A stretch of DNA of 32,532 bases from positions 1 to 32,532 of IMG/VR virus record IMGVR_UViG_3300021134_000017; one strand, 5' to 3'. The DNA comes from a virus. The notes under the pieces were generated by a model. That model made no database searches. It was given only the letters and a program-made list of their open reading frames with translations, and was not told the DNA's origin. The translations under genes and the position numbers were made by a program. Numbering within the stretch: the first letter of the stretch is position 1; each line of letters opens with the position of its first letter. Shown here one piece after another: positions 8,295 through 32,342 of this stretch.

Positions 8295-8590
8295 TGGCTA
8301 CTAAGAAAAAAGAAGTAGCTGGCGGTAAAGAGTACAAAGGCTCTAAGCAAAACGGTGGCCGTAAGATAATCGTAGAGCACTTTAAAGATTCAGCCGGTAA
8401 ATGGCACACTACATCTAAGAACGCTGCTCGTGCTAAATATGAAAAGAAGCACGGAAAGCTATCTAAGGGTACAGACGTGGATCACAAAGATAATAACCAC
8501 GATAACGATTCTTCCAGCAACCTACGCCCACTCAAGCATGGCAAAAATACTGCCAAGGAGAATAAGCGTAGGGCCGGTAAGAAGTCTTAA
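8294..8590 (+). CDS. HNH-type endonuclease
   Basis: A 98-residue protein with an HNH signature in residues 59-92: TDVDHKDNNHDNDSSSNLRPLKHGKNTAKENKR. The DH pair, the Asn of SNLRPL and the NT-x-x-x-N end are the usual conserved points of HNH nucleases with a DHxDxN form. The N-terminal half is lysine-rich and similar in composition to the two preceding proteins. Phage HNH proteins near terminase genes can assist DNA packaging, as known for HK97-type phages; others are homing nucleases. Here it sits 1.5 kb before terL with a minus-strand gene between, so the packaging role is uncertain. Its TAA overlaps the minus-strand stop in TTAA. Confidence 0.78.
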   Translation: MATKKKEVAGGKEYKGSKQNGGRKIIVEHFKDSAGKWHTTSKNAARAKYEKKHGKLSKGTDVDHKDNNHDNDSSSNLRPLKHGKNTAKENKRRAGKKS

Positions 8591-9108
8591 GCTGCCAATA
8601 TTTGAGGGCAGAGCTTAAGCCACATATTTACTAAGTAGTGGTCACGCTCACCAGGATTGGAATGCCAAGGAGACCAATCCTTACCCCCAGAACTCATTCT
8701 GTAGGCAATTTGAGCGTTTAAAACAGGATCGGTAAGGTCTTTAGGTGACTTCAGATTAAACTCGCTCAGACGGGCCTTTAAAGCCCCGTAAAGGTTAATC
8801 TGGAATACACCATAGGAGTCGTCTCCTGTTTTGCGACTAAAGTTGTGGGCAAGAGGGTTGCCGTGGGTTTCTTTCATCGCAACAGCCCAAGCCACCTTTA
8901 AAGAATGACCCTTAAACCCTACAAAGCTCAATACTTCGTAAAGTTGTTTTGGGGTTAATTTTTTGGCTAGGCTATCTTCCCCTATAGGAGTTAGGCATCT
9001 TTGGACCATTGGGGCCGCTGCTCTAACTGGGAAAGTCAACACATTTGTAATTGTTAAAAGGCCTACAAGGCCAAGGATTATAAATTTCCTTTTTCCATTA
9101 AAATTCAC
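8587..9108 (-). CDS. exported lysozyme-like/SLT lytic transglycosylase
   Basis: A 173-residue protein and the only convincing minus-strand gene. Residues 1-30 form a signal peptide: GKRK, a hydrophobic FIILGLVGLLTITNVL core and a probable cut at PVRA-AA. The mature part resembles goose-lysozyme/SLT domains: a probable catalytic Glu80 in AMKETHGNP, then S98-Y-G-V-F-Q-I-N. It should cleave peptidoglycan glycan strands outside the membrane, for lysis or for cell-wall passage. C38 and C167 could form a disulphide. It starts with GTG at 9108, after AGGAG. No holin is seen nearby. Alternatives are a Sec-exported endolysin or a superinfection factor. Confidence 0.8.
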   Translation of the reverse strand: MNFNGKRKFIILGLVGLLTITNVLTFPVRAAAPMVQRCLTPIGEDSLAKKLTPKQLYEVLSFVGFKGHSLKVAWAVAMKETHGNPLAHNFSRKTGDDSYGVFQINLYGALKARLSEFNLKSPKDLTDPVLNAQIAYRMSSGGKDWSPWHSNPGERDHYLVNMWLKLCPQILAA

Positions 9109-9316
9109 ACTATCTCCTAGGCTAGAGAGCCAACCCGAATCTTTACCTACCTGTCACTTAGATAAAGATAGCCCGGCGTCGGTCTGCCAGGCTAGTTGCA
9201 ACTCTTTTGTTTCGTTGTTAGTGTTGGAGGCTAACCTCCTGCTATTAGTATACCTGTAAATACAGTTACATTGCAAACCGTAATGTGGTGTAAGATATGA
9301 GAATATATATAGAGAA
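9109..9316. promoter_or_regulatory. divergent intergenic control region
   Basis: This 208-base gap separates the minus-strand lysin from the packaging operon and should hold promoters for both. Three dyads are visible: AGTTGCAACT (9194-9203), GGAGG-CTAA-CCTCC (9226-9239), and CTGTA-AA-TACAG (9254-9265), which overlaps TGTAA...TTACA (9255-9270). The last pair lies just upstream of the forward -10 candidate and would suit an operator. No open frame of note is present. Confidence 0.55.
9291..9296 (+). promoter_or_regulatory. candidate -10 for the packaging operon
   Basis: TAAGAT lies 20 bases before the ATG at 9317, with a weak TTACAT at 9266-9271 as a possible -35 (19-base spacer). The dyads at 9254-9270 overlap the -35 position. 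Confidence 0.4.
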
Positions 9317-9878: not shown

Positions 9879-10098
9879 GAAAAAAGAAGTAAGAGAAAAG
9901 ACTAAAATAGAGAAGCGTGTAGCAAAGCTATCTACGCCAGAGCTTCTTACATGGAGCGATCAAGTTATCTACTCAATTGGGCGCAATCTGTCCAGTTGGC
10001 AGAAAACAGATGAAACTTTTTATCTAGAAGAGGGAAAAGTGGCGGCAGAAGCTCTCCACGCTATTTTAGATACCCTATACGAAAGACACCCTAAGTGA
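9868..10098 (+). CDS. small helical protein before TerL
   Basis: A 76-residue, probably all-helical protein: a basic start (MMFKKKEVREKTKIEKRVAKL), a helix ELLTWSDQVIYSIGRNL and a C-terminal helix GKVAAEALHAILDTLYERH. It ends in TGA that overlaps the GTG start of terL. The size and location immediately before terL could suit a small terminase or regulator, but no helix-turn-helix or oligomerisation motif is evident, so I leave the role open. Confidence 0.62.
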   Translation: MMFKKKEVREKTKIEKRVAKLSTPELLTWSDQVIYSIGRNLSSWQKTDETFYLEEGKVAAEALHAILDTLYERHPK

Positions 10099-11678
10099 GC
10101 GAAAACGATTTTGACGAAGTAGAGCTAGAAGAGGTAGAAGACGAATCCTATAGCCCGCTTCCAGAAGACGATGAAGCAGACGAGCTAGATGAGCTTTCTA
10201 AAGAGTTTGTAAAGGTTTTGATCAATAAGATCATGGACTTTATGGAAATGCTTGTAGGACATAGGCTTCACCCATATCAAGAGCCTTTGGCCCGCCGTGT
10301 TATTGAGTCCGTTCTTATTAACGATGGTGAAGAAATCACCGCCCTTGCTTCACGTCAGTCAGGAAAGTCAGAGACCATTGCTAACACAGTGGCCACACTG
10401 ATGGTTATCCTTCCACGCCTAGCCCGCATGTATCCAGAGCTTCTAGGTAAGTTTGGTGATGGTATTTGGGTGGGTATGTTTGCCCCTACGCAGAACCAGG
10501 TCGAAACACTTTACTCCCGTACAGTGTCCCGACTTACATCTGAGAGAGCTATGGAAGTCTTTGGTGATCCCGAGATTGATGATATGCCTACTAAGACACC
10601 TGGTGTCGTACGAAACATCAAGCTTAAGAAGTCAGGCAGTAGCCTAATGATGATGACAGCTAACCCAAGAGCTAAGATTGAATCTAAGTCATTCCACCTT
10701 ATTATTGTAGATGAGTGTCAAGAAGCTGATGACTTTGTAGTCTCTAAGTCTATTGCTCCTATGGGTGCGTACTACAACGCTACTATGGTTAAGACCGGTA
10801 CGCCAACAACACATAAGAATGGCTTTTACCGCTCCATTACTCTTAATAAGCGTCGTCAAGCTGAAGGAAGAAAAGCCAAGCAGAACCACTTTCAGTGGGA
10901 CTGGAAAGATGTGGCTAAGATCCAAGCTAACTATGAAAAGTTTATTAAGAAAGAGATGCTACGCATCGGTGAAGACTCTGACGAGTTCCAGATGTCGTAT
11001 AACTGCAAGTGGCTTCTTGAGCGTGGTATGTTCGTAACATCCAACATTATGGATGATCTTGGAGATACTTCACAAGAAATTGTTAAGTCTTGGCACCGTT
11101 CACCTGTTGTGGTTGGAATTGATCCAGCTCGTAAGATGGACAGTACAGTGGTCACAGTGGTCTGGGTAGACTGGGATCGTCCAGATGAATATGGATACTA
11201 CGATCATAGGGTGCTTAATTGGCTTGAGCTTCAGGGAGATGACTGGGAAGAGCAATACTTCCAGATTCAACAGTTCCTTGGAAACTACGATGTACTTGCT
11301 ATCGGAGTAGATGCCAATGGTGTAGGTGATGCAGTGGCCGGTCGTTTAAAGGTATTGATGCCACGAGCTGAGGTAGTGCCTGTTACATCTAGCCCTACTG
11401 AGCAGTCCAAGCGCTGGAAGCACCTACAAGCTCTAATTCAGCGTCAAATGGTCTCTTGGCCTTCCCATGCTAAGACTCGTCGCCTACGTATCTGGAAGAA
11501 GTTTTATCAACAAATGACAGATGCAGAGGTACAATATAAAGGCCCTAACTTTTTAGTGGCTGCACCGGATGAAGCCCACGCTCACGACGATTTTGTGGAC
11601 TCTTTAGCCCTAGCCTGCTCTCTAACGCAGGAAATGGTTATGCCTACAGTAGAAGTAAGCTCTTCGCCTTTCTTTTAA
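10095..11678 (+). CDS. terL: terminase large subunit
   Basis: A 527-residue protein with both domains of the packaging motor. The ATPase has Walker A in ASRQSGKSET (residues 85-94) and Walker B LIIVDECQ (202-209). A possible coupling segment lies near TGTPTTH (234-240). The RNase-H-like nuclease has acidic residues in GIDPARKMDS (D343), GVDANGVGD (D406) and HDDFVDSLA (D498, D499, D502), spaced as in other terminases. It translocates DNA into the prohead and cuts it. It starts with GTG overlapping the previous TGA. The first 40 residues are very acidic, which is unusual and may mediate a contact (inference). No small subunit is identified. Confidence 0.96.
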   Translation: MSENDFDEVELEEVEDESYSPLPEDDEADELDELSKEFVKVLINKIMDFMEMLVGHRLHPYQEPLARRVIESVLINDGEEITALASRQSGKSETIANTVATLMVILPRLARMYPELLGKFGDGIWVGMFAPTQNQVETLYSRTVSRLTSERAMEVFGDPEIDDMPTKTPGVVRNIKLKKSGSSLMMMTANPRAKIESKSFHLIIVDECQEADDFVVSKSIAPMGAYYNATMVKTGTPTTHKNGFYRSITLNKRRQAEGRKAKQNHFQWDWKDVAKIQANYEKFIKKEMLRIGEDSDEFQMSYNCKWLLERGMFVTSNIMDDLGDTSQEIVKSWHRSPVVVGIDPARKMDSTVVTVVWVDWDRPDEYGYYDHRVLNWLELQGDDWEEQYFQIQQFLGNYDVLAIGVDANGVGDAVAGRLKVLMPRAEVVPVTSSPTEQSKRWKHLQALIQRQMVSWPSHAKTRRLRIWKKFYQQMTDAEVQYKGPNFLVAAPDEAHAHDDFVDSLALACSLTQEMVMPTVEVSSSPFF

Positions 11679-11684
11679 TTTACT

Positions 11685-11747
11685 ATGACAAATGGCCTCA
11701 TACAAGACAGAATTAACCCTGAGGAACCTCAATCCCTTATCCTATAG
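11685..11747 (+). CDS. possible 20-aa microprotein
   Basis: An ATG at 11685 opens a 20-codon frame reading MTNGLIQDRINPEEPQSLIL, ending in a TAG that overlaps the Shine-Dalgarno of the 11758 gene. There is no ribosome-binding site. A TTTAAT lies at 11674-11679, right for leaderless transcription. It could be a leader peptide coupled to the next gene, or chance. Confidence 0.3.
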   Translation: MTNGLIQDRINPEEPQSLIL

Positions 11748-11757
11748 GAGATAAACA

Positions 11758-12165
11758 ATGGCAACACCAAATATCGCACCAACACCACAATACCCAGAGC
11801 GTCCAGGAAACGTATACGAGCGCAAGTTCTCTCCTGCAACTCCAGGTCTTCGTGGACCACTTCGTTTTGAAGAAGGCATCGCATCAGATACCGACGTCCC
11901 AAATGATTTCCAACTTGGTTTGGATCAGGGTTATGAGACACCAGCTGGTCGTCCTAACCACAACAATAACGTCTTTGAAAAGTATGCTGATGAGACAATG
12001 CGTGAGCGTGCTCACGTCGGTTCAGCTGCATGGGTCGAAGCTCCAACATTCCTTGGTGAGTTCTCACAAGGTAACTTCGGAGACCACTCAACAGTTGTTA
12101 TCGAAGAAGTTGTTCGTAGCGGTTCACGCCAGGAGCGTATGAACCCTGCATCAGTAAACGACTAA
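11758..12165 (+). CDS. putative virion protein (135 aa)
   Basis: A 135-residue protein, Pro/Asn/Glu-rich with few hydrophobic stretches (QYPERPGNVYERKFSPATPGLRG; ETPAGRPNHNNNVFEKYADETMRERAHVGSAAW), probably extended or partly disordered. It has a good ribosome-binding site (AGGAG at 11747-11751) and uses the C-ending codons preferred by the capsid gene, so it is probably made in quantity. It lies alone between terL and the portal and is closed by a hairpin terminator. A capsid cement, decoration or head-stabilising role is an inference from these facts; no family is recognised. Confidence 0.65.
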   Translation: MATPNIAPTPQYPERPGNVYERKFSPATPGLRGPLRFEEGIASDTDVPNDFQLGLDQGYETPAGRPNHNNNVFEKYADETMRERAHVGSAAWVEAPTFLGEFSQGNFGDHSTVVIEEVVRSGSRQERMNPASVND

Positions 12166-12190
12166 AGTACGATAAAATAATCCAAGGTTT

Positions 12191-12225
12191 CCAGCCCCGT
12201 ACCCTTTCTCCGGGGCTGGTAAATC
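12191..12225 (+). terminator. hairpin terminator after the 11758 gene
   Basis: CCAGCCCCG (12191-12199) pairs perfectly with CGGGGCTGG (12211-12219) around an 11-base loop. The following TAAATCTTT is only partly T-rich, so efficiency may be moderate. Confidence 0.72.
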
Positions 12226-12278
12226 TTTAACACTAGAGACTGGCATGCGGGGGCAAATCAAATGAATGGACTTAACCA

Positions 12279-13997
12279 ATGAGTGGTGGTGTTGACTTTT
12301 CACCTCCGTCCTATAGGGCGGCGTCATCAGACCTAACCATTTCTATTTCACCTCTTGGTCTTGTTGAACTTGCTGATGAAGAATTTGAAGTACACGGTCC
12401 ACGTCTAAACCGTTACTCACTTAACTGGGCAATGTATCTTGGACATCACTGGTCTTATCGCCGTGAAATTGGCGAATCACAGATGGTATATAACTACTAT
12501 CGTGCTTTTACAGATTTTATTACTAACTTCACATTTAGTCGTGGAGTTTCATTTAGAAGTCCTCAAGCTACTGAGGCAATTGTTCCAGACATCTTAAAGC
12601 GTGCTTGGGAAATTGATAACAATAAACATGGCGTTCTTTGGGAGATGGGCCAACAAGGCGGAGTATCTGGTGACTGCTTTGTTAAAGTCGCTTATGAAGA
12701 AGGCTTTGAAGATTCTGTTGGTCGTTTTCACCCAGGACGAGTTCGTATCCTTCCCCTGAACTCATCTTTCTGTTTCCCAGAGTTTCACCCACACGACCGT
12801 TCACGTTTGATCCGTTTTAAGCTTAAGTACCGTTTCTGGGGAACATCTATTGAAGGTACTCGTCAGGTCTACACATATACTGAAATTCTTACTGATGACC
12901 GCATTGAGGAATACATTAATGACGAACTCATTGACTCTCGCCCTAATCCTGTTGGAGTCGTACCGATCATTCATATCCCGAATGTAATGGTATCTGGATC
13001 CCCATGGGGTCTGTCAGATTGTCACGATCTTATCGTTCTAAACCGTAACTATAATGAAGTGGCCACAGATATCGCTGATATCGTTAACTACCATGCGGCA
13101 CCAGTTACAGTTATTACCGGTGCTAAGGCATCATCTCTTGAGAAGGGCCCTAAGAAAGTATGGGGCGGACTTCCAAAGGAAGCACAAGTATTTAACCTAG
13201 AAGGCGGAGGAGCCGGTTTACAAGGCGCCCTTGAGTACCTAAAGGTTGTTAAGGCTGCTATGCACGAAATGGTTGGTGTTCCAGAGACAGCTCTAGGACA
13301 AGTACAGCCTATCTCTAATACCTCTGGTGTTGCCCTTGCTATTCAGTACCAGCCTCTGATGAATCGCTACCACCAGAAGATGGTGCAGTATAGCGAGGGT
13401 ATTCGCCGTATCAACGAATTAGTGCTTCTAACCCTTGCTTTTAAGGAGCCAGAGGCATTTATCTATAATCCAGATGTTAATGGACCTATCAAGGATCAAC
13501 AGCTTCCAGTACTAAATCTAGAAGATCCACTTACCTATGAATCTGTTGTTCACTTCCCACCTCCACTACCTCTAGATAAACTCATTACTTTGCAGGAAAT
13601 CCAAGCCAAGATGCAGATGAATCTTGAAAGCCGTGAGGGTGCTCTACGCCAGCTTGGCGAAGAGTTCCCAGATGAAAAGCTTGAGGAAATTCGTGCAGAG
13701 CTTATTGCTGATGCTAAGGCTGATGGTGCCCTAAACCTCATAAAGCAGCAGATCCAGTCAGCAATTACGTCATTAACTGGTATGATGCCTGATGGAAGTC
13801 TTCCTCCTGGAGCTGCTCCAGCAGATGGAATGGGCCCTGGTCCTCTAGGACAACCTGGAGTCATCACACCATTTGAAGAACAGACATTAGCCCAGATGCA
13901 AGCAGAGCTTGTAACTAAGGCTTATGGAACAAAACTTCCTGGACGAGGAATATCTAACGATCAAACAGATACTCCTAACTCAGAGGAAAATAAGTAA
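12279..13997 (+). CDS. portal protein (SPP1 gp6-like)
   Basis: A 572-residue protein. The region about 40-450 carries the portal core, including the NYYRAFTDFITNF helix, an LNRNYNEVATDIADIVNYHAAPV segment and the VPETALGQ...SGVALAIQYQPLM stem/clip region, which are typical of the SPP1 gp6-type family. It should form the dodecameric ring at the head vertex that TerL docks on. The C-terminal 100 residues are Pro/Gly-rich (PDGSLPPGAAPADGMGPG) and probably disordered. The ATG at 12279 has no strong ribosome-binding site, but a six-codon frame (12262-12282) ends in a TGA that overlaps it, so reinitiation is possible. Confidence 0.93.
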   Translation: MSGGVDFSPPSYRAASSDLTISISPLGLVELADEEFEVHGPRLNRYSLNWAMYLGHHWSYRREIGESQMVYNYYRAFTDFITNFTFSRGVSFRSPQATEAIVPDILKRAWEIDNNKHGVLWEMGQQGGVSGDCFVKVAYEEGFEDSVGRFHPGRVRILPLNSSFCFPEFHPHDRSRLIRFKLKYRFWGTSIEGTRQVYTYTEILTDDRIEEYINDELIDSRPNPVGVVPIIHIPNVMVSGSPWGLSDCHDLIVLNRNYNEVATDIADIVNYHAAPVTVITGAKASSLEKGPKKVWGGLPKEAQVFNLEGGGAGLQGALEYLKVVKAAMHEMVGVPETALGQVQPISNTSGVALAIQYQPLMNRYHQKMVQYSEGIRRINELVLLTLAFKEPEAFIYNPDVNGPIKDQQLPVLNLEDPLTYESVVHFPPPLPLDKLITLQEIQAKMQMNLESREGALRQLGEEFPDEKLEEIRAELIADAKADGALNLIKQQIQSAITSLTGMMPDGSLPPGAAPADGMGPGPLGQPGVITPFEEQTLAQMQAELVTKAYGTKLPGRGISNDQTDTPNSEENK

Positions 13998-14007
13998 TTT
14001 AGGCTGA

Positions 14008-14025
14008 CAAACTAGTGATAGTTTG
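14008..14025 (+). promoter_or_regulatory. hairpin between portal and scaffold genes
   Basis: CAAACTA and TAGTTTG form a perfect 7-bp stem around GTGA in the 111-base gap after the portal. No T-run follows, so it is not a classical terminator; it may be an mRNA-processing or stability element. The rest of the gap holds no gene. Confidence 0.45.
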
Positions 14026-14108
14026 CGAGTCTATATACCACTAAACAAAACCCGCAGGTCATCGTGGCACTCATTCGGACAACGACCTCTCAAACCTAAG
14101 GAATAAGC

Positions 14109-14882
14109 ATGTCAGAAAACTCAACAGCAGTAGACAGTGCAGTGGCTCAAGATGCATTTGCATCTGAAGTAAACCATACCGCACCTGTAGCCCAGCAGGC
14201 AGTGGCTGAAGATCAGTTCACTCAAGTTAAGGGATATACAGAGCAAGACTTGCAGCGTGTACGTGAGCAAGAAAAATCAAAACTTTATCCACAAATTGAT
14301 TCACTTAAGGAAGAACTTAATCTTCTTAAGAAGGATCGTGAAGAACGTCTAGCAGAGGCTCGTGCAGCTCAAGAAGCCGCAGCAGAAGCAGAGCGTAAAA
14401 AGCTCGAAGCTGACATGGATGTCCGTACTCTCCTTGAGACAAAGGAAAAAGAGTGGGCTTCTAAGATCGAATCTGAGCGCCTAGAACGTGAACGTGCATT
14501 TGCTCTCCTAGAGCGTGAACGTGAGTATGCTGAACTAACACAGTATCTCAATCGCCGCATTAGCGAAGAGCAGGAAAACATTGCACCAGAACTCATTGAT
14601 ATGGTTACTGGAAACAATGTTGAAGAGATCGAACAGAGTATTACAAAGCTTAAGGATAAAACCTCAAAGCTTCTGGAATCGGCGCAGCAAGCCATTCAGG
14701 CTCAGCGTCGTGATATGACCGGTACAAGGACAACCTTGCCACCAACCTTGGAAAACAATTCGGACCAACAATCGTACACACCGGAGCAGATTGCTTCTAT
14801 GTCGGTAGCTGACTACGCAAAAAACCGATCACGTCTGTTGGGAACAGCAGCAAATGATCGCAACAAGGGAATCTTCGGGTAA
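14109..14882 (+). CDS. capsid scaffolding protein
   Basis: A 257-residue protein, almost entirely helical and charged. Residues 1-44 are Ala/Gln-rich; residues 45-205 form a long coiled coil (EQEKSKLYPQIDSLKEELNLL; RLERERAFALLERER); the C-terminal 50 residues have a Tyr-Thr-Pro-Glu-Gln stretch and a basic end (NRSRLLGTAANDRNKGIFG) suited to contact the capsid protein. Its place directly between portal and major capsid genes and its composition are those of phage scaffolds (DUF4355-like in outline). It should direct prohead assembly and be removed afterwards; whether the 1606 Ntn hydrolase takes part is untested. Confidence 0.85.
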   Translation: MSENSTAVDSAVAQDAFASEVNHTAPVAQQAVAEDQFTQVKGYTEQDLQRVREQEKSKLYPQIDSLKEELNLLKKDREERLAEARAAQEAAAEAERKKLEADMDVRTLLETKEKEWASKIESERLERERAFALLEREREYAELTQYLNRRISEEQENIAPELIDMVTGNNVEEIEQSITKLKDKTSKLLESAQQAIQAQRRDMTGTRTTLPPTLENNSDQQSYTPEQIASMSVADYAKNRSRLLGTAANDRNKGIFG

Positions 14883-14892
14883 GTAATTACCC
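14877..14892 (+). promoter_or_regulatory. hairpin at the scaffold stop codon
   Basis: GGGTAA-GTAA-TTACCC is a perfect 6-bp dyad that includes the scaffold stop codon and is followed by TCGTTTTA. It could partly terminate or mark an RNA-processing site that sets scaffold to capsid ratios (inference). Confidence 0.4.
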
Positions 14893-14937
14893 TCGTTTTA
14901 CTAACCTAACCATATATGAACAAGGAGTAACACCGAC

Positions 14938-16014
14938 ATGGCATCAGCCGTAACAGGTACCGGCAATCTCGCCGCAGCACCTACAGCGTATTCTGGCGCA
15001 AACAGCCAGCTTACACAAGCAATTCAGACCATCTGGTCTAAAGAAATTCTTTTCCAATCAATGCCAATACTTCGCTTCGAACAGTTCGCTGTTAAGAAGA
15101 CTGAACTTGGCGTCGCACCTGGTCTCCAGATCAACTTCATGCGTTACAACAACCTCGGATTCGCTTCAACTCTTACTGAAGGTGTCCGTATGTCAACAAA
15201 CGCATTGACAGCACAACAGTTCTCAATCACTGTTGCTGAGCAAGGTTACGCAATCGCAGTATCCGAGCTTCTTCTTAACGCATCATTTGATGACGTTATG
15301 GCATCAGCTTCACGTCTTCTTGGACGTAACATGGCTCTCTACCTTGATGGCCAGGCTCGTGACACACTCATGGCTGCTTCTTCAGTCATCTACGGTGAAG
15401 ATCGTTCAAACCTCTCAGCAGTTAACAACTGGTATGCATACGGAACAGAAGCTACTTCACGTGCTTCTATGACCGGTGCTTCATACCTCTCAACACGTAC
15501 CGTTAAGGACGCTGTCGAGACCTTGGCAACCAAGAACATTCCAAGGCTTGGCGAGACCTACGTTGCATTCGTACACCCTCACCAATCACGTCGTCTTCGT
15601 GACCTCCCAGAGTTCATTGAAGTCACAAAGTACGCTGCTCCAGGTAACTTCATGCTTGGTGAAATTGGTCGCCTCTATGACACAGTCTTCATCGAGACAA
15701 CTCAGATCTCAAAGGTCACAAACGGTGCTGGTACAAACTACACCACAGATACAGCAGTGGCTCCAGGATCAATCTCTTACCCAACAGGTGGAGGTTACAC
15801 AACTCCAGTAACAGCTACAGGTAACGGTTCAAACGATCGCTACTCAGCTATCTTCATTGGAGACAATGCATTCGGTCACGCTATCTCACTTCCAGTTGAG
15901 CTTCGTGACGGCGGTATTCTTGACTTCGGTCGTGAGCACGCTCTTGCATGGTATGCTATCTACGGTCTTGGTCTTATCACTGACCAGTCTGTTGTTATCG
16001 CAGAAACCAACTAA
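14938..16014 (+). CDS. major capsid protein (N4-gp56 family)
   Basis: A 358-residue protein with an HK97-type fold in the N4-gp56 family. Residues 78-110 (STLTEGVRMSTNALTAQQFS and EQGYAIAVSELL) form the characteristic E-loop/spine area. FVHPHQSRRLRDLPEF (211-226) and GEIGRLYDTVFIETT (241-255) are strong family signatures. It builds the icosahedral shell. Residues 262-300 (Gly/Thr/Asn-rich) look like an added surface loop. AAGGAG upstream, the strongly biased C-ending codons and a terminator just downstream fit the most highly expressed gene of the window. Confidence 0.95.
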   Translation: MASAVTGTGNLAAAPTAYSGANSQLTQAIQTIWSKEILFQSMPILRFEQFAVKKTELGVAPGLQINFMRYNNLGFASTLTEGVRMSTNALTAQQFSITVAEQGYAIAVSELLLNASFDDVMASASRLLGRNMALYLDGQARDTLMAASSVIYGEDRSNLSAVNNWYAYGTEATSRASMTGASYLSTRTVKDAVETLATKNIPRLGETYVAFVHPHQSRRLRDLPEFIEVTKYAAPGNFMLGEIGRLYDTVFIETTQISKVTNGAGTNYTTDTAVAPGSISYPTGGGYTTPVTATGNGSNDRYSAIFIGDNAFGHAISLPVELRDGGILDFGREHALAWYAIYGLGLITDQSVVIAETN

Positions 16015-24845: not shown

Positions 24846-25910
24846 ATGCCAGCGTTTGCTTCGCAGCGTAACATTATTGGTCCTATCAGCTCCCTCCAAC
24901 AATATGGGGGAGCTGAGACTCCCTATAAGTATCGCCAAGTTATAACTACCGGCTACTGTGTAGCCGGCTATGCCAACTCAGTTGCATGGCAAGATGTTAA
25001 CTATTTTCCCATGGCTACAGAAACACCAGTTAGCTATGGAAATATTTTAAACCAGGCAGGCGGATATATTACTGGTGCGTTTAACCGTACCTATGGTTAT
25101 GCTATTGGCGTTTCTGGTACTGGTTCTAGCGGCATGGCTGTTTCTAACCAGGTAGCTAAATTTGCTCTTAAAACTGGTACGGGTCAAACACAGCCTTCAA
25201 GTGCCTCAGGTTGGTGGAATGACCCAGAAGCTATAATTCAAACAGATGTTTTAGGAACTGGCTATATTGCTTATGTAAACGGTTCCACATACACAAGCTC
25301 AGCAGCAACGACGGTTTATTCGTACATTCAGCAGTGGAATATGACAACTGAAACTTGGGGATCCGTAATTGGTACAAGCCTTACCCAAACTGGTAGTGGA
25401 GCTTCTGCCCACTACGATGTAGGTGGTGGAATTTGGTACGGAGATACCACAATTACCGGTGCTGCAGGTGGACAAACTTCATTTAACTTTTCTAACGTTA
25501 CAGAGTCTGCACTGTCAGTTTCTATATCTTCTTACGGGAACCAAAAAGGTCTTTCTTCTAAGAATGGTTTTGGATTCTCAGGAAACGAAGGTAACTACAA
25601 CGGTGGATATACTTACCGTAAGTGGAACTACACTACTTCTTCTATGATGGGCTACAACTCATCTATGACTAAATGCGTACCTAACTCAGGTGAAGAAAAC
25701 TACTTAACTGGACAGAACAAAGGTTATACCTTAGGTACATATACAGGAGCTGGTCAAGTTAACGACTCTGGCAGCTATAACTATGCTACAGATATTGGTG
25801 GATATATGCCATCATCTTCGTGGCCTGCAGGTATCCAATCAGGTACCGGTTCTTCTCCTGGTTCAGCTATTCCAGGACGTTCTTCTGGTACAGGAATGTG
25901 GAGTGACTAA
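24846..25910 (+). CDS. tail fibre/tip protein A (354 aa)
   Basis: A 354-residue protein rich in Gly, Ser, Tyr and Asn. Conserved blocks shared with the next gene are YRQVI..GY..AGYAN.VAW..VN near the start, a G.GG/SGNEG.YNGG...RKW.Y unit near residue 240, GEENY..GQ..GY near 290, and the C-terminus AIPGRSSGTGMWSD. Repeated aromatic/glycine turns suggest a beta-propeller or stacked-strand fold. AGGAGG precedes the ATG. It is likely a receptor-binding tip or fibre, being placed straight after the long fibre (inference). Confidence 0.72.
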   Translation: MPAFASQRNIIGPISSLQQYGGAETPYKYRQVITTGYCVAGYANSVAWQDVNYFPMATETPVSYGNILNQAGGYITGAFNRTYGYAIGVSGTGSSGMAVSNQVAKFALKTGTGQTQPSSASGWWNDPEAIIQTDVLGTGYIAYVNGSTYTSSAATTVYSYIQQWNMTTETWGSVIGTSLTQTGSGASAHYDVGGGIWYGDTTITGAAGGQTSFNFSNVTESALSVSISSYGNQKGLSSKNGFGFSGNEGNYNGGYTYRKWNYTTSSMMGYNSSMTKCVPNSGEENYLTGQNKGYTLGTYTGAGQVNDSGSYNYATDIGGYMPSSSWPAGIQSGTGSSPGSAIPGRSSGTGMWSD

Positions 25911-26926
25911 TGCCTTTTAGCACACATGATGGCGTATTTGCTGTTACTACGGCTCGTGATGAGCGCCTAGTACTTCCTTATCTTTATCGTCAAGTAATTA
26001 ACTATGGTTATGTTGCCGCAGGTTACGCTAATGGCGTAGCTTGGCGTAATGTGAACCAGATCACACACTCTAACGATACTTTTACAAACCTAGGTGATTT
26101 ACTACAAGCTGCAGCTAACTATACTTCTGGAGCTTCTGGAAGAAATAACGCTTTTGTTTGGGGAACTAACGGTACAGGTACTCAGGGTGTCGGAGCATTT
26201 ACTACAACTTCTAACTTTAATATGCGTAACAACACTACATATACCGCAACTACTTCTATGAATACTGCTCAAACTGTTGGTGACTCATCCACAATTCAAA
26301 AACAAGATCTTTGGGGAACATATCAGCTTTCTTACCAAAACGGTAACCAAGGTGCGGCAGTTTGGCAAAAGTTTAATCTTGTAACTGAAGTTGCTGCAAG
26401 TACGGGCTCAAGTAACTTCCAGCAAGGTGGAACAGGCGCCGGAGCACACTTCAGTGAGAACTGGGGTTATTTCTGGGCTGATGCTGCTGACACTGCAACA
26501 ACAGACAGAGTTAAGTTCACTTTTGCAACTGAACAAGAGTCAGTACCAGCAACTTCTCCAGGAAACCATGGTCAGCAAAAGGGCACAAATGCTAAGACTG
26601 GCTATGGATACGGAGGCAATGAAGGCACCTATAACGGAGGAAACAACTTCCGTAAGTGGAGCTATGCTACAGAAGTTAGTGTAGGAACTTACGGCAAACC
26701 TATTACTAACGCCGGTGAAGAAAACTATGATATGGGCCAAACCCACAACTATTTGGGCGGCATGTATAACGGTGCTCAAAATAACCTATCTTGGCGTTGG
26801 AACTATGCAACAGATAGTGGAACTACTTCTGGTATCGGATCCCCTTCAGGAACTGCTACAGGAACTGGATCCACTGCCGGAGCTATCCCAGGTCGCTCAT
26901 CGGGAACAGGCCACTGGCGAGATTAA
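25910..26926 (+). CDS. tail fibre/tip protein B (338 aa), paralogue of A
   Basis: A 338-residue protein paralogous to the one before it, with YRQVINYGYVAAGYANGVAW near residue 27, GYGYGGNEGTYNGGNNFRKWSY near 235, GEENYDMGQTHNYLGGMYNG near 265, and the C-terminus PGRSSGTGHWRD. The middle thirds differ, as expected for receptor-binding proteins under diversifying pressure. Its ATG overlaps the stop of A, so both are made together and may form a mixed complex. It is the last gene before the accessory cassette. Confidence 0.72.
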   Translation: MPFSTHDGVFAVTTARDERLVLPYLYRQVINYGYVAAGYANGVAWRNVNQITHSNDTFTNLGDLLQAAANYTSGASGRNNAFVWGTNGTGTQGVGAFTTTSNFNMRNNTTYTATTSMNTAQTVGDSSTIQKQDLWGTYQLSYQNGNQGAAVWQKFNLVTEVAASTGSSNFQQGGTGAGAHFSENWGYFWADAADTATTDRVKFTFATEQESVPATSPGNHGQQKGTNAKTGYGYGGNEGTYNGGNNFRKWSYATEVSVGTYGKPITNAGEENYDMGQTHNYLGGMYNGAQNNLSWRWNYATDSGTTSGIGSPSGTATGTGSTAGAIPGRSSGTGHWRD

Positions 26927-26956: not shown

Positions 26957-27733
26957 ATGGAAAACAAATGGTTGGATAAGAGCTCAGTAGAAATTGAGAA
27001 CTTACTAGTAACAGATACCTCAGATTTGACAGAAGATCAAATTAATCTTCTCAAATTCTCTACAACTGCTGATCAGGGCGTACCCTACTTTAAGATTAAG
27101 CACTTTATTGGTAATGCTCAGATTACCCCTTATGCTAAATACAAGCAACTTCTTTTAGAGCTTCGTGCTCGTGAAGAAGTGTTAGAAAACTTTCTTATGA
27201 ATACGGCTAAGCAAGAAGCCCAGGTTGAAGTCCTTAGAGAAGAGTATGAAAAAGAGACTTCACCAGCAAAACGTAAGCTAAAAGAGTTCGAACTTATTAC
27301 AAATAAGAACGACCTTATTAAAATTAAGCGTCGTTTAGCTCAAGCCTATGAAGAGCGCAAGCGGTTTATTACAGCTATCGAAGAGATGTATGCCTCAGGA
27401 GAAGCCTATCTACCAGACGGAACGGATATGGCTGAAGCTATTCGTAATCCCGAGCTTGGTGAGAAGCTTGAGCGTGAGCATTGGATTGCCCGCCTAGGAA
27501 AACAAACAGCCCTAGACCTGATTTCTATGGGTCGTCTAGGAACTGGTAATATGGATGCTATTGCCATGCTCTCAGAAAATGATGCTGTAGAGACTTTGAA
27601 GGTCGCTGTTGACTGGTCTGCTCGTGTTCAAAATGCTCTAGGCAGCATTGAAAAAGAAAAGCTAGCTGAGCTATCGCAGCGTGAATTTACGATTGAGCTT
27701 CTAGAAAAAAATACTAAGCTAGAGCTAGAATGA
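26957..27733 (+). CDS. helical protein of unknown function (258 aa)
   Basis: A 258-residue, mostly alpha-helical charged protein, with a probable coiled coil from about residue 65 to 150 (LLLELRAREEVLENFLMNTAK; LREEYEKETSPAKRKLKEFEL; KRRLAQAYEERKRF). There is no signal peptide or membrane segment. GGAGG at 26947-26951 is well placed. The stop is TGA in an ATGA overlap with the next gene, a pattern repeated at the next two strong junctions, so the cassette is translated as a unit. Its codons differ from the neighbouring fibre genes. The family is not recognised. Confidence 0.7.
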   Translation: MENKWLDKSSVEIENLLVTDTSDLTEDQINLLKFSTTADQGVPYFKIKHFIGNAQITPYAKYKQLLLELRAREEVLENFLMNTAKQEAQVEVLREEYEKETSPAKRKLKEFELITNKNDLIKIKRRLAQAYEERKRFITAIEEMYASGEAYLPDGTDMAEAIRNPELGEKLEREHWIARLGKQTALDLISMGRLGTGNMDAIAMLSENDAVETLKVAVDWSARVQNALGSIEKEKLAELSQREFTIELLEKNTKLELE

Positions 27734-28146
27734 TAGGCGCAGTTACTGTAGATCATATCTACTCCCTTCCTTTAGAGGAGCAGAATAAGTTTAATATCAT
27801 AGGTCAATGGCAGGTCTGGCATATCATAGATTTTGGTGACGGACCTGTTGACTTTCCCGTTGATATAGAGCTCTCAGAGTACGAAGCCTACGGCTGGAAG
27901 TTTTGGCAAAATTCACACACTGATAACATAAAGGTTCAAGAAGACTTTGTGGCCTATCATCAACTTCCAAAAGATAAGCTAGAATGGTACCCTCGTAAGA
28001 ACCGGGTAACTGGAGAAGTTCTGCCAGATGCCCCAGCACGTTGGAAGTACAAGTTCACCGAGGAAGATGTAAAGCAAGGTCAAGCATTCGGAGCAAAGAT
28101 GGAGCCACTATATGTTCAGCGTACCTTTAAACCCCAAGCTCAATGA
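27730..28146 (+). CDS. hypothetical protein (138 aa) of the cassette
   Basis: A 138-residue protein with an aromatic-rich N-terminal half (IIGQWQVWHIIDFGDGPVDFPVDIELSEYEAYGWKFWQ) and a basic C-terminal half. It is coupled by ATGA to the preceding gene and overlaps the U32/methyltransferase gene by 35 bases. The strand/turn pattern suggests a compact beta fold. No conserved motif or family is recognised. By linkage it may act with the fused enzyme that follows. Confidence 0.66.
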   Translation: MIGAVTVDHIYSLPLEEQNKFNIIGQWQVWHIIDFGDGPVDFPVDIELSEYEAYGWKFWQNSHTDNIKVQEDFVAYHQLPKDKLEWYPRKNRVTGEVLPDAPARWKYKFTEEDVKQGQAFGAKMEPLYVQRTFKPQAQ

Positions 28147-29755
28147 AAAGGATATGGCTGACTTCGTACAGTTCCTGATTGACTGTAAGGATGTTCTGTT
28201 TGACTTCTATTTTACTTGCCGCATAGAGCCTTTTACACAGGATGCTATGGGCGATACCTTTGTAGGTGAAAAGGAAGACCATGACTATCTCAACGAGCTA
28301 GCTATTAGTATTCAGAACTATACTGGCGTAACTGCTTCAGCCGTATTTAACAACATCTACGTGCGCCCCTCCCAAGAGAATCTAGATCTGTTTATAAAGA
28401 ACTTTAAGCCTCTTTATGATGCAGGCATCCGCTCAGCTACTATTCCACATACTCACTGGATGTCTACCGGGCAGATCAAAGAAGCATTTCCTGATCTATT
28501 TGTAAAGAACACCATCCTTAGAAATGTCAGCGAACCTAGGGACATAGAGAAGCTGGCTAAGGCCGGATTTGACTATATCAATCTGGATCGTGATCTTATG
28601 CGTGATCATGACAAGCTTATGCGTTTTAAGAAGGCCAAAGATAAGTACGGCGTAAAGCTATCCCTCCTAGCTAATGAGGGCTGTCTTGGCGGCTGCATCA
28701 TGATGGATGAGCACTACCAGTTTAACAACACCCGTGTGGGAAATGATGCCCAGTATTTTAACGACCCTATCAGCCGAGTCTCATGCATGAAGTGGAACTA
28801 TGAGGAACAAGGCACCACACTTAAGCTAGCTAACTTCCCACCCTGGAAAGAAGACTGGGACTTCTTCCTATCAGATCTAGGCATTGACGTAATCAAGATG
28901 CATGGTCGTGAAGCCCACACTCGCCTCAAAGAAACTATGAACATTATTAGGAAGTACGTTGCGGGAGAGTCTATCCTGTACGAACACTTCAATGACTTCA
29001 TCAATGAGACCAACCTAGTAGATAAGCCTATTGATATCTGGCGCAATAAGATTAAGAATTGTAAGTTTGACTGCTGGGATTGCGGCTACTGCGACAAGAT
29101 TGTGGCAGCTAAGTACGGTGACCAGAGGATTCCTAAGACCCTGGTTGTTACCCAAGAGCTTGTAACCTCAGTTAACCGTAAGGTTGACATTGATATTCCA
29201 GGCCTAACCAGCAAGAGGGTTCAGCAGCTTCTAAATGGTCTTGCCTCACGTTCCTCTACATACCTCGAAATCGGGGCGTATTTGGGCGCTACGGCCGCAG
29301 GAGCTTTGGCAGGTAATAATCTGACCGCCTACTTCATTGACATGTGGGAAGAGGATTTACAGCCCGCTGAGGCCCATATGCAACTTCCCCCTAATAGCCT
29401 AGTAGAGTTTGAAAAGAACATCGCACCTTATGTAGGAAATAACAAGGTCCATATCCTGAATGAGGATATGCACGAGGTTGAGGTTTCAGATATAAATGGT
29501 GTAGACTTATTTTTTTATGATGGCCCACATCAACCGGAGGAACTGATTAAGGTTCTTACCCGGTACAAAGACTGCTTTGCAGATCAGGCAATCTTGGTCT
29601 TTGATGATGCTAACTGGACTGACGTAGTTATGGCAGCAGAGGAAGGTGTTAAACGAGCTGGCTTAAAGTTGCTATATGGTAAGAAAGTACTTAACAAGAT
29701 TGAGTCAGCCCAAGACTGGTGGAATGGGCTTTACATTATGGTGGTAAATAAATGA
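28112..29755 (+). CDS. U32-peptidase-like domain fused to a class I methyltransferase
   Basis: A 547-residue two-domain protein. Residues 1-335 follow the U32 family (RlhA, TrhP, UbiU/UbiV type): FSVPLN start, a barrel-like DAGIRSATIPHTHW, DYINLDRDL, then NEGCLGGC (C191, C195), RVSCMKW (C225) and CKFDCWDCGYC (C317, C321, C324, C327), candidate Fe-S ligands. Residues 360-547 are a Rossmann methyltransferase with the SAM motif YLEIGAYLGATAAGAL (384-399), then FIDMWEE and FFYDGPHQPEE. U32 relatives hydroxylate or modify RNA or quinones using iron-sulphur clusters. A coupled modification step is an inference. It starts at ATG 28112 after GGAG. Confidence 0.78.
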   Translation: MFSVPLNPKLNEKDMADFVQFLIDCKDVLFDFYFTCRIEPFTQDAMGDTFVGEKEDHDYLNELAISIQNYTGVTASAVFNNIYVRPSQENLDLFIKNFKPLYDAGIRSATIPHTHWMSTGQIKEAFPDLFVKNTILRNVSEPRDIEKLAKAGFDYINLDRDLMRDHDKLMRFKKAKDKYGVKLSLLANEGCLGGCIMMDEHYQFNNTRVGNDAQYFNDPISRVSCMKWNYEEQGTTLKLANFPPWKEDWDFFLSDLGIDVIKMHGREAHTRLKETMNIIRKYVAGESILYEHFNDFINETNLVDKPIDIWRNKIKNCKFDCWDCGYCDKIVAAKYGDQRIPKTLVVTQELVTSVNRKVDIDIPGLTSKRVQQLLNGLASRSSTYLEIGAYLGATAAGALAGNNLTAYFIDMWEEDLQPAEAHMQLPPNSLVEFEKNIAPYVGNNKVHILNEDMHEVEVSDINGVDLFFYDGPHQPEELIKVLTRYKDCFADQAILVFDDANWTDVVMAAEEGVKRAGLKLLYGKKVLNKIESAQDWWNGLYIMVVNK

Positions 29756-30663
29756 CATTTTCAGATTACATTTCAGACTGGCAATATATTGTTGCCCTAG
29801 CTTTTGTGCTAGTACTCTCATATTATGCTACTAAGTTTGATGTGTTCCAACCTTTCTTTAGCTTGCTTGCTAGGAGAATGAAGTCTAAGCGTGGAGTAAT
29901 GGTACTTACTTCTGCTATAACTGCGGTGCTTCCTATTAATGGACGTACCGTAGTTTCAGGTGGAATCCTAAGAACCATTGCCCCCGAGGATCCTGCAAAG
30001 CGTAAGAAGTTTGCTGTTGTAGATTATCTCAATGCCCACCACTTCTACTTCTGGTCCCCACTAGAAGCCTCTGTAATTCTACCTATGGCAGCTCTTCATA
30101 TTGGATACTGGAGATTCTTTGGGCATATTTGGCCTGCGCTATTAACAGTAATCATCACGGGTTTGGTCTATGACTTTTGGGTAGTCAAAGAAGACGATGT
30201 TGATATCGTAGTTCGTGGACACAGAGAACGTCAAGATCTTGACGGCAGGAAATATTTTAAAGAGGGCGTAATAACCGTAGCGTCTGTGTTTACCCTTATG
30301 GTTTTAGGAAACATTGTCTATGCTCACTCAGGTTGGTTTGACCATCTATTAGCCCATACCAACAAGAACGTAGCAATCATTGCTATCTTGCCCCTAGTAT
30401 TTACCATGAGCTGGTTATTTGGAAGCAGTGAAAAGTTTACTGGAGTGGTTGCCCTAACTGCAGCCACCTTTGGTATCTCATACCTGCCTCTCCTATTCTC
30501 AGTAGGATGGTCAGGATATATGCTGTCTCCATTCCATAAGTGCATGCTCTTAGGTCAACGATATTTTGGAGCTAACTGGAAAGATTATTACAAAGTTATA
30601 GCAGCTATCTGTGGAGTAGTTATCATGGTGGCTTGCGTACACACGTTTACGACAGGACTCTAA
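29752..30663 (+). CDS. DUF401-like integral membrane transporter
   Basis: A 303-residue protein with about eight hydrophobic segments (near 11-25, 48-62, 100-118, 125-144, 173-192, 207-224, 229-249 and 281-298). VLPINGRTVVSGGIL with LNAHHFYFWSPLEASVILP and YMLSPFHKCMLLGQRYFGANWKDYYKVI follow the pattern of DUF401 proteins, relatives of ion/arsenite/citrate-type transporters. It should sit in the host inner membrane; the substrate is unknown. Its ATG overlaps the TGA of the U32/methyltransferase gene, which suggests it exports or imports a molecule linked to that enzyme (inference). Membrane transporters are rare in the tail-gene region of phages. Confidence 0.72.
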   Translation: MTFSDYISDWQYIVALAFVLVLSYYATKFDVFQPFFSLLARRMKSKRGVMVLTSAITAVLPINGRTVVSGGILRTIAPEDPAKRKKFAVVDYLNAHHFYFWSPLEASVILPMAALHIGYWRFFGHIWPALLTVIITGLVYDFWVVKEDDVDIVVRGHRERQDLDGRKYFKEGVITVASVFTLMVLGNIVYAHSGWFDHLLAHTNKNVAIIAILPLVFTMSWLFGSSEKFTGVVALTAATFGISYLPLLFSVGWSGYMLSPFHKCMLLGQRYFGANWKDYYKVIAAICGVVIMVACVHTFTTGL

Positions 30664-30664
30664 T

Positions 30665-31366
30665 ATGGCAAAAAAGATCAAGTTTATTCCTATGTCCCAA
30701 GAGGTTGAGGATAAGTACGACCCACCTAAGCCTTCTCGGTCATATGTGCCGGATTGGTACAAGAAGGCTAATCGCTGGCGTTCGGGAAAGATGGAGCCTC
30801 TACCTGAGGGCGGACTAAACAAAGATCTTAAGCTATGCGTACCTTTCCTAGATGGGATGACTGCAGGCTATATGATTGAGCTTCCAGCAGACTTACTAGT
30901 TAAGCGTGATGCTCAAGGGGTTGGGTTTTTCTGGAATGAAGAGCCTGGCCCCATCGAGATCCGCTCAGCTGATATGGCTAGGACTCTTCCCCGCCCACCA
31001 GGAATGGATGAGACTCTTTACGCTTGGAACTTCCATTGGGCAATAGAAACCCCACCTGGGTACAGCCTTATGATTACAAGTCCGCTCAATCGTTTTGAGC
31101 TGCCTTTTGTTACGACATCAGGAATTATGGATTCAGATGGCTTCTCTCTTGGCGGTCAAATACCATTCTTCTTGGCAAAAGATTTTGAGGGCATTATCCC
31201 TGCGGGCACTCCAATCATTCAGGTAATCCCAATCAAGCGTGATTCCTGGAAGTCCCAGGTATTGCCTTATAACGCCACCTATATTAAGAAACAGCTTTTT
31301 GCTGTCACTAAGTATATGTATGGCGGGTACAAAAAGGTGCGCTGGGTTAAGAAGGAATACGAGTAA
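30665..31366 (+). CDS. DUF6065-like protein
   Basis: A 233-residue soluble protein. Blocks match my memory of DUF6065: a CVPFLDGMTAGYMIELPADLLV stretch, HWAIETPPGYSLMITSPLNRFEL near 119-141, then TSGIMDSDGF and GIIPAGTPIIQVIPIKRD. The family function is unknown. The PPGYSLMITSP and G.I.SD/Q(I/V)IP pattern also recalls double-psi or dUTPase-like beta folds, but no nucleotide-binding motif is conserved, so I do not call it a dUTPase. It starts one base after the transporter stop and ends the cassette, with a 43-base gap to the next fibre gene. Confidence 0.66.
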   Translation: MAKKIKFIPMSQEVEDKYDPPKPSRSYVPDWYKKANRWRSGKMEPLPEGGLNKDLKLCVPFLDGMTAGYMIELPADLLVKRDAQGVGFFWNEEPGPIEIRSADMARTLPRPPGMDETLYAWNFHWAIETPPGYSLMITSPLNRFELPFVTTSGIMDSDGFSLGGQIPFFLAKDFEGIIPAGTPIIQVIPIKRDSWKSQVLPYNATYIKKQLFAVTKYMYGGYKKVRWVKKEYE

Positions 31367-31409: not shown

Positions 31410-32342
31410 ATGGCAACAGCTTCATATCCAAATCAGGTTAAAACCTACCAACCAGAGGTTGACCTTGTCAGCACCGTTTTGGCTGATAACGTCAATGCAC
31501 TACAGGTTGAGATTACTGCTATTGAGACAACCCTTGGTTCTGCCCTGACCAATCAAAGTCCCCTGATTTCTACCTACTCAGGAACTTTTGCTAAGACTAC
31601 CGGTTGGTCTACCTTGGGCGATCGCCTCAACAACATTGAGTATGGCTTGGTAAATGGTGTGGCTAATAGTCCATATGTCAGCATCAATGGCGGAAGCACT
31701 ATTATCACTAGCTCTACAAAAGGACTTGTACTAAAGGTAGGCTCAGGAACAGCCAACCTTATTGAGACATATACTTCTGGCTCTGTGCTTGGCTTCAACG
31801 TCAACTCCTCCGGTATTCCAGCTGTGGGTTCTAGTAACGTTCTCTATGTTAATAGCACTGACTACAATACTCTTACAGCTGCTACGACTGCCGCCAATAA
31901 TAATGCCAATACCAAGATCCCGCTCTCAACCGTAACAGCTGCAGGCGATCTTCTTATCGGTTCTGGTAACGCCACAGTAACTAACCTTGCTAATGGAACT
32001 GCCGGCCAATCTCTTATTATGAACGGCACCTCAGTTGCTTGGGGTACCCCAACAGATACTACAAAGATCCCACTAAGCACAGTTAGTGCAGCTGGTGATC
32101 TTGTGGTGGGAACAGGTGCCTCAGCTGTAGGACGCTTGGCTATCGGTGGAGCTGGTACAGTTCTTAGCAGCAATGGTTCTGCCCTTTCATGGCAGACTCC
32201 AACAGTTTATCTTGCAACAGCAAATGCTTCAGTAACAGCCGCCTCAACTTCTCTAGGCGTTGTCCGCAATACATGGGTCTCTACAACAGCACCAACAACA
32301 GGCCAGGGCAACGATGGAGACATCTGGATTGTGTATCAGTAA
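31410..32342 (+). CDS. tail fibre protein (310 aa) with tandem repeat
   Basis: A 310-residue fibre protein. The N-terminal 40 residues are a helical attachment module (PEVDLVSTVLADNVNALQVEI). Residues 85-165 are Ser/Thr/Asn-rich beta sequence. Residues 168-216 and 218-266 are two imperfect copies of a 49-residue unit starting TKIPLSTV.AAGDL. The C-terminus DGDIWIVYQ matches a widespread phage fibre end. GAGGAG precedes the ATG at 31410. A one-base overlap joins it to the next, partial gene. It resumes the fibre cluster after the accessory cassette. Confidence 0.82.
   Translation: MATASYPNQVKTYQPEVDLVSTVLADNVNALQVEITAIETTLGSALTNQSPLISTYSGTFAKTTGWSTLGDRLNNIEYGLVNGVANSPYVSINGGSTIITSSTKGLVLKVGSGTANLIETYTSGSVLGFNVNSSGIPAVGSSNVLYVNSTDYNTLTAATTAANNNANTKIPLSTVTAAGDLLIGSGNATVTNLANGTAGQSLIMNGTSVAWGTPTDTTKIPLSTVSAAGDLVVGTGASAVGRLAIGGAGTVLSSNGSALSWQTPTVYLATANASVTAASTSLGVVRNTWVSTTAPTTGQGNDGDIWIVYQ
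31911..32207 (+). repeat. two 49-residue tandem units in the fibre
   Basis: Residues 168-216 (TKIPLSTVTAAGDLLIGSG, then WGTPTD) and 218-266 (TKIPLSTVSAAGDLVVGTG, then WQTPT). The units share start, middle and end phrases and differ by substitutions, as in other phage fibre shafts. Confidence 0.8.

Follow-up and report, generated by a model that had tools for sequence, protein, structure and literature searches.

A putative host-recognition module pairing a phage fibre type with a U32-like barrel and O-methyltransferase protein

Introduction

The cyanomyovirus protein families T4-GC351 to T4-GC354 appear in the literature as four clusters to which no function is attached (Sullivan et al. 2010, PMC3037559). 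Here, we describe members of these families in and directly upstream of a five-gene cassette (g1 to g5, positions 26957-31366) of the IMG/VR virus record IMGVR_UViG_3300021134_000017, the 32.5 kb of which are referred to as the window. The central gene of the cassette, g3, encodes a barrel joined to a methyltransferase, an architecture whose closest described counterparts involve the U32 proteins. TrhP and RlhA, which belong to this group, are needed for the C5 hydroxylation of pyrimidines in tRNA and rRNA, and where a methyltransferase follows U32 hydroxylation, as with TrmR in yrrM-yrrN-yrrO, the new hydroxyl gets methylated (PMC6599085). In O2-independent ubiquinone synthesis, the quinone ring is hydroxylated with the help of the U32 proteins UbiU and UbiV, whose conserved cysteines bind a [4Fe-4S] cluster (PMC6747719).

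The original prediction made from this DNA interpreted the five genes as a host-takeover or modification pathway, with nothing in the set needed to build a virion. A conserved linked set, a two-domain fusion and a transporter are indeed present, but g1 to g3 are tied to a fibre and g4 and g5 are optional, so that a host-takeover pathway is only partly supported, and for g1 to g3 the statement about the virion is doubtful. We tentatively favour, as an account not far from probable, a transferable host-recognition module in which an adhesin of the PHROG_1417 family is accompanied by two helper proteins (g1 and g2) and a tailoring enzyme (g3) that would modify the adhesin or a partner molecule. 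Such a module would consist of one to three PHROG_1417 genes followed by g1, g2 and g3, with g4 and g5 as optional extras. The genes concerned are the following.

24846-25910, + strand: putative fibre/adhesin, copy 1 (PHROG_1417, T4-GC351 C-terminal type, E 4e-23)
25910-26926, + strand: putative fibre/adhesin, copy 2, directly upstream of g1 (PHROG_1417, E 1e-39)
26957-27733, + strand: g1, helical protein, PHROG_1409 = T4-GC353 (PHROG E 2e-38)
27730-28146, + strand: g2, short divergent member of T4-GC352 (PHROG_1604/10301/2618; iterated profile, E 8e-23)
28112-29755, + strand: g3, U32-like TIM barrel (residues ~1-335) and class I O-methyltransferase (~352-547), T4-GC354 = PHROG_1458 (PHROG E 8e-165)
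29752-30663, + strand: g4, DUF401-family membrane transporter, optional member (PF04165, 40.7 bits, cut-off 24)
30665-31366, + strand: g5, PHROG_7084, dUTPase/dCTP-deaminase-like beta-clip fold in a predicted model, DUF6065-related, optional member

Co-occurrence of the fibre and g1 to g3

According to the alignment, the two PHROG_1417 proteins of the window are of the same type as the GC351 proteins of cyanophages; the family has G269-E270-E271, Y39, Y71 and Y286 as invariant residues. Conservation of the gene order was analysed in the 80 IMG/VR contigs closest in g3, 54 of which were non-redundant at 90%. A PHROG_1417 fibre was located directly upstream, within 3 kb, in all 68 contigs that could be tested, namely those with 1.5 kb or more of sequence before g1/g2. 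Among the non-redundant contigs, g1 and g2 were found at most 2.5 kb upstream of g3 in 45 of the 45 that were testable, and g1 adjoined g3 in all 45. The reverse scan, which started from the fibre alone, covered 79 loci in another 80 nearest-relative contigs. Where at least 3 kb followed the fibre, g1 and g2 were present in 55 of 55 loci and g3 in 54; the sole locus without g3 carries g1 and g2 and ends 3.2 kb past the fibre match. When at least 6 kb were available, g3 was detected in every locus (35/35).

The same pairing was observed among isolates. In a survey of 50,697 phage records, full-length homologues of g3 (about 42-45% identity) were detected in 123, comprising 77 Synechococcus, 38 Cyanophage and 8 Prochlorococcus records, and a query restricted to the last 388 residues of the GC351 fibre (its C-terminal part) likewise matched 123, with an identical breakdown by organism and listed hosts. 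Using the full-length fibre as the query gave 139 records, 16 more than the C-terminal part, and the weak full-fibre matches share just the N-terminal 60-75 residues. P-SSM7, S-MbCM6 and S-H38, which have such N-terminal-only matches, carry no g1 to g3 at that place; nor were these genes found in the searched parts of S-CREM2 (49 kb), S-SCSM1 (first 50 kb) and S-SZBM1 (46 kb), so that the virion proteomes of these three phages carry no information on g1 to g3.

The module is present in the lineages of S-H25, Syn33, S-RIM12, S-RIM2, Syn19, P-SSM3/4, P-RSM1, MbCM1, S-ShM2/S-RIM14, S-CAM4 and P-HM2. Its position varies (Syn19, S-RIM12 and S-H25, about 31-40 kb; P-HM2, 89-95 kb; S-CAM4, 98-103 kb). 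S-ShM2 has other genes, 5.8 kb in length, between GC353 and GC354. The C-terminal region of the fibre and g1 to g3 therefore co-occur obligately in unrelated phages, and the functional unit reaches upstream of the predicted cassette, taking in the fibre genes.

In S-MbCM6, a 2-oxoglutarate-Fe(II) oxygenase gene (L266:7001-9079) lies directly behind alternative fibre genes, where relatives have g1 to g3, and this is possibly another pairing of a fibre with a hydroxylase.

Optional members g4 and g5

At least 546 relatives of g3 and at least 413 of g4 were detected in IMG/VR. The original prediction had named a lack of any joint occurrence of the five genes in other genomes as its refutation; this is not what was observed, as the genes are linked in related phages, although not uniformly. 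Of 41 non-redundant contigs, g4 lay no more than 5 kb downstream of g3 in 30, directly adjoining it in 19, g5 within the same distance in 27, and both in 17. In the 55 loci of the reverse scan, g4 was seen in 35 and g5 in 14. Only 9 of the 123 isolate records with g3 carry g4, and in S-CAM4 the transporter lies far from g3. The g4 of the window is 76% identical to that of the phage L009, whose g1 is 31% identical and which is without g5, while in its nearest relatives by g1, g3 and g5 this gene is 39-43% identical. Thus, g4 is exchanged on its own in a mosaic fashion, and both g4 and g5 are optional.

This difference bears on whether the fibre tip is simply exchanged together with the genes that follow it, as one block of DNA whose parts do not act on one another. 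Phages that carry a different fibre tip are without the whole block at that place, as such linked inheritance would have it, and hypervariable host-recognition clusters with unrelated genes have been described in pelagimyophages (PMC7029224). Passengers, however, would often be lost or separated, as g4 and g5 are, whereas g1 to g3 stay together across lineages and locations and despite the insertion in S-ShM2. Because g4 and g5 drift freely and g1 to g3 do not, we regard linked inheritance alone as rather improbable.

The identification of g4 as a DUF401-like transporter is upheld by its Pfam score given above, which exceeds the curated cut-off. A true membrane protein of this family, close to g3 in most contigs, is what would be expected of an enzyme-plus-transporter pathway for altering the host surface or exporting a small molecule, for instance in host takeover or superinfection exclusion, and pelagimyophages carry surface-altering glycosyltransferases in comparable regions (PMC7029224). 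Nevertheless, g4 is missing from most isolates with g3 and is exchanged independently of it, and the obligate partner of g3 is the fibre, which makes this pathway quite improbable.

For g5, the proposed likeness to DUF6065 was partly sustained: the window protein stays below the threshold (PF19541, 11.8 bits vs 26.6), but 3 of 36 relatives match, with E-values down to 1e-7, and g5 is a distant DUF6065 relative. Its AlphaFold2 model has a predicted local distance difference test (pLDDT) score of 89.5, and all 50 best Foldseek matches are dUTPases or dCTP deaminases (best E 1.2e-3). The VIA alignment with 2y8c_B covers 120 residues (Z 9.5, root-mean-square deviation (rmsd) 2.9). The motif-3-like G153/D156 and the motif-4-like G181 are invariant or nearly so; the Arg-Ser-Ser of dUTPase motif 2 was not seen, and the Pfam dUTPase profile reached E 0.26 in one member. 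In HF2-like haloviruses (L185:3857-4693, L186:4857-5741), a g5 relative lies beside a class II ribonucleotide reductase, which fits a dUTPase-like fold. L016 has two g5-family genes (5270-5998 and 8564-9256) in one module, one of them inserted between g2 and g3.

The fold of g5 and the ribonucleotide reductase beside its halovirus relatives could point to phage DNA modification, in which g3 would make a 5-hydroxy or 5-methoxy pyrimidine in DNA or in the deoxynucleotide pool and g5 would act on nucleotides. Phages are known to reuse RNA-modification chemistry for DNA, as with CmoX of Synechococcus phage S-B43 (PMC12783734). Since g5 is optional and often absent, and g3 is tied to a fibre and not to replication genes, this is highly improbable.

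The barrel-methyltransferase protein g3

The best-conserved member of the module is g3, with 66-75% identity among relatives vs 31-66% for g1. Its AlphaFold2 model (pLDDT 86.6) has two domains. The second, residues ~352-547, aligns with COMT-type O-methyltransferases with Z up to 16.8 (Bacillus subtilis TrmR, 15.8), and Methyltransf_24 (PF13578) is found in the window protein at 32.8 bits vs a cut-off of 26.3 and in 41 of 41 members. E386, G388, G392, D410, D470, D498, D499 and N501 are invariant. With the Pfam match and the S-adenosylmethionine and metal residues in agreement, the second half of g3 is a metal-dependent class I O-methyltransferase of the Methyltransf_24 / COMT-TrmR type.

Residues 1-272 align with the U32 protein Mk0906 (5d88) over 223 residues (VIA-align Z 16.3, rmsd 3.1). 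No second barrel appeared in the 50 best rows, which does not exclude likeness to other TIM barrels. Sequence comparison gave a different result. PF01136 (Peptidase U32) had no match in 41 g3 homologues at E<=1 or in 23 phage records at E<=10, and hhalign of the barrel with U32 yielded a probability of 7% (E 0.005), in an alignment that ends at the equivalent of C169. In TrhP, E162, C170 and C177, which form the Glu and C-x6-C motif of U32, are essential (PMC6599085). In its place, g3 has N188-E189-G-C191-x3-C195: the position 8 before C191 is L, I or Y in all 41 homologues in place of the motif Glu, and the next invariant cysteine after C191 is C195 (C-x3-C), so that C-x6-C does not occur. 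The seven invariant cysteines (191, 195, 225, 317, 321, 324 and 327) also differ in spacing from the U32 pattern CX6CX15CX3/4C. Since the barrel fails the tests of the U32 profile and motif, we call it U32-like and do not assign it to U32; the U32-methyltransferase fusion that had been proposed stands as regards the joined domains and the U32-type fold, but not as regards the U32 sequence model and motif. C317-x3-C321-x2-C324 resembles the CX3CX2C of radical SAM enzymes; this candidate was rejected, as the cysteines sit past the barrel and no radical-SAM family matched.

In one clade, g3 is split into adjacent genes for the barrel (340-346 amino acids) and the methyltransferase (218-221 amino acids), each with its own start codon and with all key residues kept, at the same place as the fused gene.

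L228:8269-9958, split g3
L231:10638-12310, split g3
L259:12577-14266, split g3

Since natural split and fusion forms exist, the two activities belong together. An apparent barrel-only form in P-SSM3 (L184:4995-6715) was dismissed, being a g3 homologue broken into two frames in the deposited record and unannotated there. Cellular relatives were limited to three GTDB contigs, and plasmid searches for g3 relatives gave no match. One cellular relative, consisting of the barrel only, is from a Syntrophaceae metagenome-assembled genome (1 of 297 genomes of that phylum). There (L179:5980-7911), the next protein has a similar Asn-x-Gly-Cys motif, and CysD/CysN and a sulfotransferase-like gene are nearby.

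The main rival to an adhesin-directed function, and a serious one, is that g3 is a one-piece RNA wobble-modification enzyme comparable to B. subtilis TrhP1/TrhP2 plus TrmR, whose barrel would hydroxylate C5 of a pyrimidine in tRNA or rRNA of host or phage and whose methyltransferase would then produce the 5-methoxy derivative, with better late translation as the outcome. It draws on the role of TrhP and RlhA described above, on the location of B. subtilis yrrM(trmR)-yrrN-yrrO in one operon and on the fusion of a different hydroxylase, TrhO, to TrmR in some eukaryotes (PMC6599085). The best PDB profile match of g3 is also TrmR/YrrM, with E 0.034, in line with the structural alignment. However, TrmR ties with many small-molecule O-methyltransferases, the barrel lacks the catalytic U32 motif (E and C-x6-C), and an RNA enzyme would not be expected to be so strictly paired with a single type of fibre. 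We therefore consider RNA modification somewhat unlikely.

Returning to the host-recognition module, we infer the adhesin as the substrate of g3 because the strict partner of g1 to g3 is the C-terminal domain of the fibre. By analogy with known U32 proteins and TrmR, the barrel would bind an Fe-S cluster via some of the seven invariant cysteines and hydroxylate, or otherwise activate, a substrate, whereupon the methyltransferase would O-methylate the same site. The substrate, modified in late infection, would be the adhesin or something needed only with it; g1 and g2 may help to fold or present the fibre, and the modification would tune receptor binding or the stability of the fibre tip. Such chemistry is plausible for g3. 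A narrower version is a post-translational modification system in which the U32-like Fe-S barrel hydroxylates conserved residues of the phage's adhesin (for example, the invariant tyrosines Y39, Y71 or Y286), the COMT-type domain O-methylates them and the chemically matured receptor-binding tip is swapped as a module between unrelated phages. This version is unlikely; if true, g3 would give the U32-type enzymes their first protein substrate.

Several points weigh against this account. The adhesin is the substrate of g3 by inference only, the hydroxylase chemistry is an analogy drawn for a barrel that fails the U32 sequence tests, and the substrates of known U32 proteins are RNA or quinones, not proteins. 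Exchange of a linked block could account for the co-occurrence. The 80 contigs of each scan are nearest relatives only, many of the 123 records are near-identical isolates (S-RIM2, S-RIM12), and the two sets of 123 were matched by counts and categories, not accession by accession. In addition, the status of the PHROG_1417 proteins as virion fibres rests on position and annotation.

The small proteins g1 and g2

Homologues of g1 carry the label T4-GC353 in Syn19 and P-HM2, and the identity of g1 and g3 as PHROG_1409 and PHROG_1458, together with their location beside GC351/GC352, is upheld by labels in Syn19, P-HM2 and S-ShM2. Single-sequence searches with g2 in phages and IMG/VR retrieved no relative. 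That g2 is an orphan is true of such searches only: profile iteration over positional equivalents places it in T4-GC352, so that the "unknown protein" of the original prediction turns out to be a short member of that family. The iterated profile finds GC352 of S-H25, Syn19, P-HM2, S-ShM2 and S-CAM4, with E 8e-40 to 5e-34 for P-HM2, Syn19 and S-H25 and 7.5e-23 for the window copy; other members, PHROG_1604/10301/2618, are without a function in PHROG. We also considered a DUF4376 (PF14301) tail-fibre assembly protein, an idea that arose from a W-x2-Q-x2-EA pattern in long members. It was unsupported, since none of 23 records matched the model at E<=10.

Phage lineage and organization of the locus

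The window has an SPP1-type portal, and its capsid protein and terminase are 74% and about 51-52% identical, respectively, to their counterparts in LuckySocke and BRock, Streptomyces phages of the genus Borockvirus; Borockvirus-like head genes occupy window positions 10095-16014. No gp23 was found in the window, unlike in S-H25 and Syn19, which have T4 gp23. The capsid protein is shared by 4 of 23 searched records, and LuckySocke and BRock were not among the g3 matches. The window phage is thus Borockvirus-like and not T4-like, and the same genes suggest an actinobacterial host. Because module carriers such as S-H25 and Syn19 are T4-like, the module crosses phage lineages, and one module serving unrelated virions is as expected for a receptor-binding cassette. 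Elsewhere in the window, the gene upstream of the terminase (2246-3208) contains a PASTA domain (28.8 bits vs a Pfam cut-off of 23.2), and a tRNA-Asn(GTT) is located at 15-88, at the left fragment end.

The five plus-strand open reading frames of the cassette were confirmed at the positions listed and, since all have homologues, are real genes. Their reported location between fibre-like genes was borne out by the two PHROG_1417 proteins upstream and, downstream, by a gene at 31410-32342 with a weak virion-protein match (E 6e-4). ATGA overlaps join g1/g2 and g3/g4 only; g2 and g3 overlap by 35 nucleotides, a long overlap that occurs in cyanophages too, and g4 and g5 are separated by 1 nucleotide. 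The TGA stops of g1, g2 and g3 are present as described. They were set aside as a signature: in an ATGA overlap the upstream stop must be TGA, hence two of the three carry no independent signal. The TATACT proposed as a promoter at 26929 does exist, but the consensus scan gives no promoter there, with 17 sites in the region vs 13.2 +/- 3.6 in shuffled sequences.

Comparison with known systems

The four families are large and occur in phages that are abundant in the sea and in fresh water (hundreds of contigs and at least 123 isolate records), with no assigned role. An obligate module with a specific fibre and a central U32-like/O-methyltransferase enzyme makes these catalogued families accessible to experiment. 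With the adhesin as the substrate, fibre chemistry as well as fibre sequence would determine host range, and a protein would join the substrates of the U32 superfamily; with RNA as the substrate, phages would carry a one-gene wobble-modification enzyme. The literature searched held no description of the g3 fold, its split form or its strict pairing with a fibre. New chemistry is possible.

Among the closest counterparts is the T4-GC351-354 cluster of cyanomyoviruses (Syn19, P-HM2, S-RIM2 and S-ShM2; PHROGs 1417, 1604, 1409 and 1458), with the same four families, neighbourhood and overlaps. All four are "hypothetical" there, and the window differs from this cluster in its Borockvirus-like phage, short GC352, two fibre copies and additional g4 and g5. 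The B. subtilis trmR-trhP2-trhP1 operon (yrrM-yrrN-yrrO, mo5U34) likewise combines U32-type barrels with a COMT-type O-methyltransferase in a hydroxylate-then-methylate logic. Its genes are separate, the U32 motif is canonical, the substrate is tRNA and no fibre is involved, whereas g3 is a fusion, motif-less and tied to a fibre. UbiU/UbiV resemble g3 in having a U32(-like) barrel with conserved cysteines, but have no methyltransferase domain and differ in spacing (CX6CX16CX38C and CXnCX12CX3C vs C191-x3-C195-x29-C225 and C317-x3-C321-x2-C324-x2-C327). The S-MbCM6 oxygenase is a hydroxylase-class gene directly behind fibres, as g3 may be, but of an unrelated family and outside this module. Finally, the host-recognition cluster of pelagimyophages and cyanomyophages is likewise a variable block of fibres and enzyme genes (PMC7029224); its enzymes are mainly glycosyltransferases, for which a change of the host surface has been proposed, whereas the module of the window has one fixed enzyme behind one fibre type.

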